Source: Devosia sp. ZB163 | GTDB taxonomy: Bacteria > Pseudomonadota > Alphaproteobacteria > Rhizobiales > Devosiaceae | Direction: 5' to 3' | DNA: 64,000 bases | Assembly (NCBI RefSeq): GCF_028613635.1 | Contig: NZ_JAQRMY010000002.1 | Span: 744,001 to 808,000 of the forward strand | Shown: positions 59,258-63,200 of the stretch, in pieces | Position numbering within the stretch: the stretch's first letter is position 1 | Layout: every line of letters begins with the position of its first letter | The notes under the pieces: model-generated | The model's database searches: none | The model's input: the letters and a program-made list of their open reading frames with translations, nothing else | Told to the model about the DNA's origin: nothing | Made by a program: the position numbers and the translations under genes

Positions 59258-59929
59258 TCAGGCTGCGTTGAGCAGGCCGGAGAACAGCTGACGGCCGTCG
59301 GAGCCGCCATGCGCCGCCTCGATCAGGTTCTCGGGGTGCGGCATCAGGCCGAGCACGTTCTTCTTCTCGTTGAACACGCCGGCGATGTCGTTGATCGAGC
59401 CGTTCGGGTTTGTGCCGTCGGCGTAGCGGAAGGCAACCTGGCCCTGACCTTCTACGCGTGCCAGCGTCTCGGCATCGGCAAAATAGTTGCCGTCATGGTG
59501 GGCGACGGGGCAGCGGATGATCTGGCCCTGCTTGTAGCCGCGCGTGAACGGCGTCGAAGCGTTCTCGATCTGGAGCTTCACCTCGCGGCAGACGAACTTC
59601 AGCGAGGCATTCCGCATCAGCACGCCCGGCACGAGCCCGGCCTCGCTGAGAATCTGGAAGCCGTTGCAGACGCCCATCACCTTGACGCCATGGGCGGCGC
59701 GATCGCGGATGGTGTCCATCACCGGCGAGCGGGCAGCGATAGCGCCGACGCGAAGGTAGTCGCCGTAAGAAAAGCCGCCCGGGATGACGATGAGGTCGAC
59801 CTTGGGGATCTCGGCATCCTTGTGCCAGACCACTGCCGGCGCCTCGCCCCCGATCTTGGTCAGGGCGGCGATCATGTCGCGGTCGCGGTTGAGACCGGGG
59901 AACACGACGACGGCGGCTTTCATCGGCAA
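59258..59929 (-). CDS. purQ: Phosphoribosylformylglycinamidine synthase, glutaminase subunit PurQ
   Basis: PurQ releases ammonia from glutamine for PurL. The 223-residue protein is a class I amidotransferase with the triad Cys88 (GVCNGFQIL), His198 and Glu200 (MPHPENLIE). The N-terminus [16 protein letters not shown] is typical. It is downstream of an acyltransferase gene that carries its own terminator, so purQ may have a separate promoter in the short gap near 59930-59979. Confidence 0.97.
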
Positions 59930-60011: not shown

Positions 60012-61091
60012 CTACTCCGCCGGCACCGCAGCCGGCTTGACGTAGCTGCGGCTGCCCGGCGCGCCGGGGATGTGGGCCCAGGCGGGGCGCTCGAACAGGA
60101 ACTTGCCCCATCCGGTGCGCTTGATCAGCCAGTAGAGCACCAGCGGCGAGACGAGCGCGATGGTCATCACGAGGACACTGACGACGCTGACGTCATCGAT
60201 GAGCCCGGTCTTGAGAATCAGGGTGCGGCTCGCGGCCATCGGGATGGAGAAGCTGAGGTAGATCACGATCGAGCGCTCGCCGAGCCAGCGCAACCAGCTC
60301 ATCCACGGCAGTTTCACGAGCAGGGCCGCCGTGACGCAGACTGCGAGCGCACCCACGAAGGCCAGTACGAGGTGGACGACCGGCAGGGCCGCATAGCCCA
60401 TGTACATGTGACGCGGCGCGACGGTGGCGCCGCCGGAAAAGACGAGGATGCCCTCGATGACGGCGGAGGCCAGCAGCGCGACAGTCGACAGCGCCGGCCG
60501 TTCCTGCGCCGCCGCGACGATGCGGAACACCAGCGGTGCGAACGCATATCCGGCGTAGAAGTACACGGAGTAGGCTGCGAAGTGGTCGACCAGCGGGATG
60601 CCGGTGGTGACCGGGAATATCTGGAGGAGCGCGGCGGCGCCGAAGGCGGCCCAGTGCGGCACCTTCAGCGAGTAAAGGACCTTCGCCACCAGCGAATAGA
60701 CCGCGAGCATGTAGATGAACCACAGCACGCCATAGGGCTCGACGACGGCCCACAGGATCTGCGTCGCAACGCCACCGACGTCGCCGGTGCCGAGGCCGAC
60801 CTTGAAGGCGATCTGCAGCACGGCCCAGAGCGCATAGAAGTACAGGTAGTGGACCACGCGCCGGTCCGTGTAGTGCAGCCACGGCCGCGCGATGACCTGG
60901 CTGAGGAAGAGGCCCGAGATCAGGAAGAACTCGGGCATCCGGAACGGGGCGGCCCAGCCGATGATGTAGTGCAGGACGCCGACACCGTTGAGATCCTCGC
61001 CGACCCCGTAGGCCGAATGCATCATGACCACGAGGATGATCGACAGACCCTTGGCGGCGTCGACCCAGTCGAGACGATTGGCGTTTGGCAT
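60012..61091 (-). CDS. Acyltransferase-3 (OpgC-like) integral membrane protein
   Basis: The 359-residue protein has about ten spans and begins [21 protein letters not shown] with the catalytic-type His of acyltransferase-3 enzymes. It continues [17 protein letters not shown] with the conserved R. Such proteins O-acylate cell-surface sugars or glucans. The chosen ATG is at 61089-61091. It interrupts the purS-purQ neighbourhood and has its own terminator. Confidence 0.9.
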
Positions 61092-61255
61092 CGCGAGGCT
61101 CCCGGTAACCTGGCCACATATAGCCGGGCGCGTCCGGGATGCCGGAAAAGCCTGCAAATAGGCTTAAGCCAACTGCTTAATAAACAAGGACATATCGAGC
61201 TGGCAGGGGCCGGGACCGGCGGCGCGCCTGGACCCGGTGCAGCCGTCCGCGTGCC

Positions 61256-61339
61256 TTAGAACGGCAGCGACAGGTGCGTGGCGAGGAGGAGGCCGACGGT
61301 CATGAAGAAGAGGGCGGAGAGCGAGAAGGTCTTGAGCAT
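61256..61339 (-). CDS. 27-residue single-span membrane miniprotein (copy 1)
   Basis: The peptide begins MLKTFSLS, continues with a hydrophobic helix (ALFFMTVGLLLAT) and ends LSLPF, then TAA. It is 27 residues, nearly all one membrane span with a single Lys at the N-terminal side. A homologous 27-residue frame lies 415 bases upstream (61755-61838); 16 positions are identical and the rest are mostly hydrophobic swaps. The ribosome-binding site is weak. Similarity of a second frame of the same length, rather than coding statistics, is the evidence that it is translated. It lies 164 bases before the acyltransferase gene. Confidence 0.6.
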   Translation of the reverse strand: MLKTFSLSALFFMTVGLLLATHLSLPF

Positions 61340-61754
61340 CTGAACGGTCGTATTCTGCGCCGGTTCTGGGCGCGTTGGGGTGCGGGTTCTGTAGGTCGGT
61401 TCGCCGCGGGCGGATAGTCCGTGTCCGTGCATGGCTCCAATGCACTGCTTTGGCTGAATGGAGTCTGAACCGGCACGGTTAACGGGCTGAGTGACGCAAC
61501 TCTGCGACTATTCGGTGAGGTCGCCGCGGCGGAATAGTGGCAGCGGATCCATGTGGCGTATGCGCCACAGGCGAGCCAGTCGCGGGACGTGTAGCCAGCC
61601 GCCCTCACTCCCCGGATGCGAAAGCCGGGAGGACGGGCGGCGCAAGACCGCGTGCACCGGGGCAGTGAACAGTTGGGATAAGACCTGTCTGTCCGCGCGG
61701 GGCAATACCCCGCTCGTCAATCGGCCGTCGATTTGCTTGGGGAGTCGCCCGGTC
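61340..61754. other. 415-base stretch between the two miniprotein genes, nothing certain
   Basis: I find no convincing gene here. A 6-base GCGGGG/CCCCGC hairpin lies near 61695-61713, and a lone TTAAC half-site lies at about 61470. The stretch probably carries the leader of the downstream miniprotein gene on the minus strand. Confidence 0.4.
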
Positions 61755-61838
61755 CTAGACCGGAACCGATGCGTACGCCGCGAAGAACAGGCCGAGCGTG
61801 AGGAAGAAGGCGATCGAGAGCGAGAAGGTCTTGAGCAT
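61755..61838 (-). CDS. 27-residue single-span membrane miniprotein (copy 2)
   Basis: The peptide begins MLKTFSLS, has the helix IAFFLTLGLFFAAY and ends ASVPV, then TAG. Relative to copy 1 the first 22 bases are identical and later codons differ partly at third positions, with TxG, L, A, S and P kept at the same places. It begins 62 bases after purS, so it is probably the next gene of that transcript. Both copies share a CAG...GACC...ATG arrangement before the start but lack a classical ribosome-binding site. A membrane-peptide regulator of a larger partner is the simplest guess. Confidence 0.65.
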   Translation of the reverse strand: MLKTFSLSIAFFLTLGLFFAAYASVPV

Positions 61839-61900
61839 CGGCTGGTCTTTACTGGAGCGCGCCCGGCTTGTGCAGGCTGCGCCAACATATGCGGTGATTC

Positions 61901-62143
61901 TTAAGGCGTGATTTCGATCGTGTAATTTTCGATGACCGTATTGGCGAGTAGTTTCTCGCACATTGTACGTACGTTCGCCTCGGCCTGTGACCTATCGGCG
62001 TCACCCAGCTCGAGGTCGAACACCTTGCCCTGCCGCACGGCGCCGACGCCGTCGAAGCCGAGGCTCTTGAGCGAACCCTGGATGGCCTGGCCCTGCGGAT
62101 CGAGGACGCCGGATTTGAGCGTGACGGTGACGCGGGCTTTCAT
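61901..62143 (-). CDS. purS: Phosphoribosylformylglycinamidine synthase subunit PurS
   Basis: PurS is the small structural subunit that joins PurQ and PurL. The 80-residue protein has KARVTVTLKSGVLDPQGQAI at the N-terminus and KSLGFDGVGAVRQGKVFDLEL (in part), then an acidic-to-basic helix and a C-terminal strand IENYTIEITP. It follows purC by 45 bases on the same strand and precedes miniprotein copy 2. Confidence 0.97.
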   Translation of the reverse strand: MKARVTVTLKSGVLDPQGQAIQGSLKSLGFDGVGAVRQGKVFDLELGDADRSQAEANVRTMCEKLLANTVIENYTIEITP

Positions 62144-62188
62144 CGAAAATTCCCGAAAGAGGGCAGGGCGATCGCTCTGCCGAGGGCG

Positions 62189-62953
62189 CTATTGCACGAG
62201 TCGCGGACCAGTGGTCAACGCGTTGTCGGTTTCCACCAGGATCCCGAGGCGCTGGGCCACTTCGCGGTAGGATTCCACCAGCCCGCCGAGGTCCTCGCGG
62301 AAACGGTCCTTGTCGAGCTTGTTGCGCGTCTTGATGTCCCACAGCCGGCAGTTGTCCGGGCTGATCTCGTCGGCGAGCACGATCCGCATCAGGTCGCCAT
62401 CATAGAGGCGGCCGCACTCGATCTTGAAATCGACGAGCTGGATGCCGACACCCATGAACAGGCCGGTGAGGAAGTCGTTGACGCGGATGGCGAGGGCCAT
62501 GATGTCGTCGAGTTCCTGGGGTGTTGCCCAGCCGAACGCGGTGATGTGCTCTTCGCTGACCATCGGGTCGTTGAGCGCATCGTCCTTGTAGTAGAACTCT
62601 ATGATCGAGCGCGGCAGCTGCGTGCCCGGCTCGAGGCCGAGGCGCTTGGTCAGCGAGCCGGCGGCGACGTTGCGAACCACCACCTCGAGCGGGATGATCT
62701 CGACTTCCTTGATCAGCTGCTCGCGCATGTTGAGCCGGCGGATGAAGTGCGTCGGGATGCCGAGGCCGTTGAGCTTGGAGAAGATGAACTCGCTGATGCG
62801 GTTGTTCAGCACGCCCTTGCCGTCGATGATCTCATGCTTGGCGCCGTTGCCGGCGGTCGCGTCGTCCTTGAAATACTGGATCAGCGTACCCGGCTCCGGA
62901 CCCTCGTAGAGTGTCTTGGCCTTGCCGTCATAGATCTTGCGGCGACGGTTCAT
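62189..62953 (-). CDS. purC: Phosphoribosylaminoimidazole-succinocarboxamide synthase PurC
   Basis: SAICAR synthetase joins CAIR and aspartate using ATP in purine synthesis. The 254-residue protein, the family norm, starts [16 protein letters not shown] and has [18 protein letters not shown] and [12 protein letters not shown]. An upstream in-frame ATG would add seven residues; I chose 62951-62953 for family length. It is the first gene of the leftward purine block and is divergent from the zeta-subunit gene. Confidence 0.97.
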
Positions 62954-63200
62954 ATGAGGTCTGCCTCGTGGCAATGTGGGGAATTGCGGGCCTAATGCGC
63001 CAGAATGGTTGCGGAATGCAAGCTATTTCGCCGCCTCACGGCCCGACTCGGGCACGCCCAGGGGCATCCAAAACGAACGCTGGCCGTTGATGAAGCTGAC
63101 CAAATGACGCGACGGACGCCGTTGATTTGACTGTCCGTCCAGCTTATGTCCAAACGCAATCGAGGGCGCCCGGCAAGCGGGCCGAAGAGCGGAGAACATC

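Follow-up and report, generated by a model that had tools for sequence, protein, structure and literature searches.

Two reading frames of 27 codons that follow purS in Devosia sp. ZB163 are real genes of a family specific to the Devosiaceae. The reading frame is conserved, its place after purS is steady, the protein is under purifying selection, and one genus carries a second copy. The products are probably inner-membrane miniproteins of about 27 residues, each a putative accessory or regulatory subunit, oriented N-in/C-out, of a larger membrane protein. The family consists of lineage-specific members of a known general kind, the membrane miniprotein, and its neighbourhood is unusual and steady. 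The gene is kept in 124 to 127 of the 129 purS-bearing genomes of the Devosiaceae, yet no Pfam or NCBIfam model matches it over the model's cut-off. It offers a simple case, open to testing, of a miniprotein that is conserved and has a steady metabolic neighbourhood.

Two homologous 27-codon frames in a purine locus

The window, which is the whole stretch of 64,000 nucleotides that was analyzed, carries on its minus strand, in this gene order, purC, purS, miniprotein copy 2, miniprotein copy 1, a gene for an acyltransferase-3 family protein, and purQ.

62189-62974, minus strand: purC, SAICAR synthetase (PF01259); frame as listed, from TTG
61901-62143, minus strand: purS (PF02700)
61839-61900, minus strand: leader of copy 2, from the purS stop to the ATG, without a good Shine-Dalgarno sequence (AAAGACC)
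61755-61838, minus strand: miniprotein copy 2, stop included; 27 residues, ending AAYASVPV; the type of the single copy of other genera
61256-61339, minus strand: miniprotein copy 1, stop included; 27 residues, ending ATHLSLPF; the additional copy, found in the window's genus alone
60012-61157, minus strand: acyltransferase-3 family protein (PF01757), downstream of the miniproteins
59258-59929, minus strand: purQ, glutamine amidotransferase (PF13507), named from position and homology

The preliminary description had reported two 27-codon frames in tandem downstream of purS, identical at 16 of 27 residues, and had regarded them as homologous hydrophobic miniproteins. Both points were confirmed. 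Copy 1 (MLKTFSLSALFFMTVGLLLATHLSLPF) and copy 2 (MLKTFSLSIAFFLTLGLFFAAYASVPV) share 16 of 27 residues (59%) and 60 of 81 nucleotides, and the GRAVY values of the two are 1.63 and 1.47. When copy 2 was used as a tblastn query against its own genome, two places were matched, copy 2 itself and copy 1 (E = 1.5e-4). The ATG of copy 2 is 62 nt past the purS stop, the starts of the two copies are 499 nt apart, and the acyltransferase gene sits between copy 1 and purQ. A mechanical list of open reading frames gives longer frames of 58 and 68 residues at the two places, because in-frame start codons are present upstream. The 27-codon start is supported by several relatives, in which the open frame spans just 27-31 residues.

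Distribution of the miniprotein in the Devosiaceae

We examined the distribution of the miniprotein in related genomes. Copy 2 alone, used as the query, matched 32 of 61 genomes (its own and those of relatives) at E <= 10. For a family-wide search, a profile of 32 rows was compared with 136 Devosiaceae genomes, and 133 of these matched at the loose threshold of E <= 10, chance matches included. A purS search found this gene in 129 of the 136 genomes; the other seven were without it. In 124 of the 129 purS-bearing genomes, a miniprotein frame was located on the same strand and no more than 5.5 kb downstream of purS, with a profile E of 0.0025 or less. A divergent frame of 26-27 residues was found by eye at the purS site of three further genomes (G019, G036, and G158). 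By contrast, profile search and reading by eye revealed no recognizable miniprotein in two purS-bearing genomes, G138 (2.0 Mb) and G021 (2.3 Mb). The miniprotein is therefore dispensable in these two, which counts against an accessory or regulatory subunit.

Since the two genes adjoin, the joint absence of purS and the miniprotein from incomplete assemblies proves nothing. In G017 and G018, members of the window's genus estimated to be 90-91% complete, no purS, strong miniprotein match, or acyltransferase homologue was found; these gaps may reflect either missing contigs or a loss of purine synthesis. Another purS-less genome, G026, contains a miniprotein-like frame, and the 2.5 kb inspected around this frame showed no pur gene. 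Miniprotein-like peptides (26-35 residues when counted from an inner M) were also seen away from purS in other Devosiaceae genomes (loci L128, L129, L130, L134, and L136), and profile-matching frames unlinked to purS are present in G020, which has two, and in G070.

Outside the Devosiaceae, a search at E <= 1e-3 that matched all 13 of the Devosiaceae genomes included gave no match in 284 other Hyphomicrobiales genomes. When a broader profile (A4) was compared with 347 genomes of the order, all 17 Devosiaceae matched. Six of the 330 non-Devosiaceae genomes also gave A4 matches at E <= 0.05, and these were rejected as homologues: five lie inside frames of 373-502 residues, and the sixth covers 13 residues of a 32-residue frame.

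Among named genomes, 67 miniprotein loci were found, mostly from Devosia, with two from Pelagibacterium and the rest from less precisely named bins; Devosia and Pelagibacterium both belong to the Devosiaceae, order Hyphomicrobiales, and it is these named records that identify the searched family. All 67 loci, which were selected for holding the miniprotein, have purS ahead of it on the same strand. The gap between the purS stop and the first ATG ranges from 42 to 2516 nt, with a median of 55 nt, and does not exceed 110 nt in 62 loci. The fetched stretch includes purQ in 61 loci.

Selection on the protein

The preliminary description had inferred selection on the protein from the differences between the two window copies. 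These differences show a weak synonymous bias (pS 0.30, pN 0.24), and this comparison alone therefore shows no constraint. The claim was instead borne out by the orthologues. Over orthologue pairs that were >75% identical, and that are not independent of one another, dN/dS was 0.12 among copy-2-type sequences as a whole (39 distinct), 0.11 for copy 2 within the window's genus (12 sequences), and 0.29 for copy 1 (nine sequences). In copy 2 of the window's genus, the differences are split 0.26/0.03/0.71 over codon positions 1, 2, and 3. In an ungapped comparison of the same genes, identity was 0.84 in the coding region versus 0.38 and 0.30 in the 30-nt flanks; among the orthologues, flanking DNA compared without gaps was 0.27-0.42 identical. 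These results show that the protein is what is kept and that it is under purifying selection. The genes show the sequence features of a single-span membrane miniprotein, namely a short open reading frame, one hydrophobic stretch, and selection on the protein. The frames are very short, as chance frames or a non-coding repeat might be, but dN/dS, the steady length, and the steady neighbourhood speak against such an origin, which is extremely improbable.

Duplication in one genus

A second copy linked to purS was detected in 16 of the 17 purS-bearing genomes of the window's genus and in no other genus among the 136 Devosiaceae genomes searched. The remaining purS-bearing member of the genus, G016, has no second copy linked to purS. 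In G004, G005, G006, and G009, roughly 1.5 kb separates the copies, and an open frame lies in this interval. The copy-1 frame of G007 is interrupted at a homopolymer run of T (L020, minus strand near 1356), which may be due to an assembly error or to decay. Copy 1 would be a diverged duplicate from which Y22 was lost.

Sequence anatomy and predicted topology

We compared 82 distinct sequences, 11 of which were typed from purS sites. Their lengths are 26-30 residues, with 53 sequences at 27. F11 is present in 81, P26 in 79, and Y22 in 73 of the 82. The copy-1 type (nine sequences) was defined by the absence of Y22, and Y22 is therefore present in 73 of the 73 remaining sequences by construction. 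Lysine and arginine occur at positions 2-4 only, and one sequence of the 82 contains an acidic residue. Under the established positive-inside rule, this confinement of K/R suggests that the orientation is N-in/C-out.

On this prediction, a single helix would span the membrane: the N-terminus, with K/R at positions 2-4, would face the cytoplasm, and the conserved Y22-P26 end would reach the periplasmic face. The peptide would serve as a small subunit, accessory or regulatory, packed against some larger inner-membrane protein. The most conserved part would thus lie in the membrane and at the outer face, which points to a membrane-protein partner rather than to contact with a soluble purine enzyme. 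A role as a simple anchor for soluble PurS, PurQ, or PurL is unlikely for the same reason, since only about four residues would reach the cytoplasm. Small residues did not form a significant packing face (helical moment, p = 0.09; i,i+4 pairs, p = 0.8), and this counts against the subunit proposal. A profile search against solved structures matched four chains, all from a single entry for a ligand-gated channel, and nothing else, with E values of 1.6-1.7.

The make-up of the miniprotein resembles that of a Sec signal peptide, which also weighs against a membrane subunit. The miniprotein might be such a signal peptide with almost no mature part, from which a signal peptidase I cut after residue 23 would release a short peptide, e.g., SVPV. 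Among the 73 distinct single-copy or copy-2-type sequences, position 23 is small (A, G, or S) in all, and positions 21 and 23 fit the -3/-1 rule in 69. However, the fit extends to just three of the nine copy-1-type sequences, and Y22, V25, and P26 are conserved on both sides of the putative cut. A signal peptide would not usually be conserved on either side of its cleavage site. For TimP of Salmonella, cleavage is predicted, but no product of it was seen and the protein remains in the membrane, as stated in the available part of its report (PMC7667032). We consider release of a short peptide improbable.

Candidate partners and the toxin hypothesis

Regulation of a larger membrane protein, as had been proposed in the preliminary description, is a possible role, but the obvious candidate, the adjacent acyltransferase, is not required. 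The miniprotein could be an accessory protein of this acyltransferase-3 enzyme, whose gene is within the fetched stretch of 64 of the 67 named loci. However, G016 (98% complete) and G004 (99%) have the miniprotein, and a search at E <= 1e-20 detected no homologue of the acyltransferase in either genome; G021 has the acyltransferase (54% identity) and no recognizable miniprotein. The retention of the miniprotein in G016 and G004 largely rejects the enzyme as an obligate partner, and an accessory role for this enzyme is highly improbable.

In size, hydrophobicity, and duplication, the miniproteins also resemble type I toxins or similar membrane-damaging peptides under antisense RNA control. E. 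coli DinQ, for example, is described as a toxic single-span peptide in the available part of its report (PMC3567139). Such a function is very unlikely here: one neighbourhood is kept in 124 of the 129 purS-bearing genomes, and no toxin family model was matched by the members searched (three at E <= 10, 22 at E <= 1). In the 64-kb window, Rfam gave nothing at gathering scores.

Relation to NF041637 and purine synthesis

NF041637 (FGAM_small_mem), an NCBIfam family, is named phosphoribosylformylglycinamidine synthase-associated small membrane protein; in our reading, the name derives from position alone. Like the miniprotein, it has one hydrophobic helix, and in some other Hyphomicrobiales its gene follows purS and precedes purQ, but it differs in its consensus core (AIRFMLIKAAIFILIPVV) and in a longer, charged N-terminus. 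Seven of 27 outgroup purS loci contain a one-helix open reading frame of 35-45 residues between purS and purQ. Six of the seven match NF041637, five of them above the 40-bit cut-off; the sixth scored 37.3 bits as a shortened typed frame and 50.1 bits in the genome search. The seventh (G173) scored 20.6 bits. Among the 136 Devosiaceae genomes, none exceeded the 40-bit cut-off, and no listed weak match fell at a miniprotein place.

The miniprotein could accordingly take part in purine synthesis as its membrane partner or regulator and stand in the Devosiaceae for NF041637, whether through divergence beyond recognition or through independent origin. Both proteins are encoded directly after purS and before purQ, and NF041637 was found over the cut-off in 39 of the 284 non-Devosiaceae Hyphomicrobiales genomes. 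By contrast, the purS-purQ interval lacks a one-helix open reading frame in 20 of the 27 outgroup loci, and the short cytoplasmic part predicted for the miniprotein also speaks against such a role. The Devosiaceae (14 rows) also group by themselves in a rough purC/purS/purQ tree with midpoint rooting, separate from the clade with 16 of 17 NF041637 loci. We regard a purine-synthesis partner as rather unlikely.

Homology to NF041637 was rejected, with the HMM cut-off, hhalign, and the ungapped profile comparison all negative. The hhalign score was 7.9 over one aligned column, versus 8.7 +/- 2.5 for column-shuffled profiles, 55% of which scored as high; the ungapped profile score gave p = 0.32. 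It is doubtful that two unrelated one-helix miniproteins settled independently in the purS-purQ slot in two Hyphomicrobiales lineages; if they did, the FGAM step of purine synthesis in these bacteria would be under unrecognized membrane-linked control or attachment. These data raise the question of why one-helix membrane proteins recur in the purS-purQ intervals of Hyphomicrobiales.

Comparison with known small proteins

No match over a cut-off was obtained for the miniproteins in Pfam or NCBIfam, likely because of their 27-codon length. Three members gave no NCBIfam match at E <= 10. When 22 diverse members were searched at E <= 1, the single sub-threshold match, from one member, was to KdpF (NF011342, K(+)-transporting ATPase subunit F; E = 0.048, 13.9 bits versus a cut-off of 53). 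In both searches, the short length of the query may cause weak matches to be lost at the HMMER filters. KdpF, with a model length of about 29 residues, is similar in size to the miniprotein and belongs to a larger complex as a one-helix subunit.

YohP of E. coli and TimP of Salmonella were compared with the miniprotein by description. According to the available parts of the reports on YohP (PMC7549839, PMC12719787), this protein likewise has 27 residues and one helix in the inner membrane, and its central glycine is at position 15 (16 in the miniprotein). The likeness noted is one of description, and YohP differs in being mostly C-in/N-out and tied to stress. TimP, in the available part of its report (PMC7667032), is also small and hydrophobic, with a signal-peptide-like N-terminus, and stays in the membrane; unlike the miniprotein, it has 38 residues, is toxic, and is paired with an sRNA. 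Titles and abstract starts of the literature on Devosia or purS-linked small proteins gave no description of the miniprotein, and purS and purQ are absent from the main text of a Sinorhizobium Ribo-seq paper (PMC10117765).

Leader and flanking signals

In 39 of the 67 named loci (Devosia group, among L065-L125), a hairpin (GCGCC/GGCGC) directly precedes GG(A), and the latter is about 10 nt ahead of the ATG. This leader element, comprising the hairpin and the Shine-Dalgarno-like GG(A), lies some 40 nt ahead of the start codon of the miniprotein. Across the 39 loci, 195 of 195 cells of the 5-bp hairpin are paired, and eight one-sided changes and one two-sided change keep the pairing. The grouping of loci for this alignment is our own. 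The 28 loci outside it consist of 14 from the window's genus or near it, six from other genera, and eight from the Devosia group, the last being six near-duplicates of aligned rows (L091, L109, L111, L114, L115, and L126) and two loci with atypical leaders (L103 and L124). The window's genus is without the hairpin and GG(A) signal and has AAAGACC or a similar sequence in its place. The window copies have no good Shine-Dalgarno sequence, which counts against our favoured reading of both as miniprotein genes.

Within 61100-62200 of the window, no intrinsic terminator was found, and one weak sigma-70-like site was seen inside purS. A perfect palindrome, TTAAGC-N5-GCTTAA, is present at 61164-61180, before the acyltransferase gene. 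The related pattern TTAAG-N7-CTTAA was observed in 18 of 64 relatives' loci, within 260 nt before the acyltransferase gene, and nowhere else in the 587,357 bases of the same loci. It looks like a putative binding site of some regulator.
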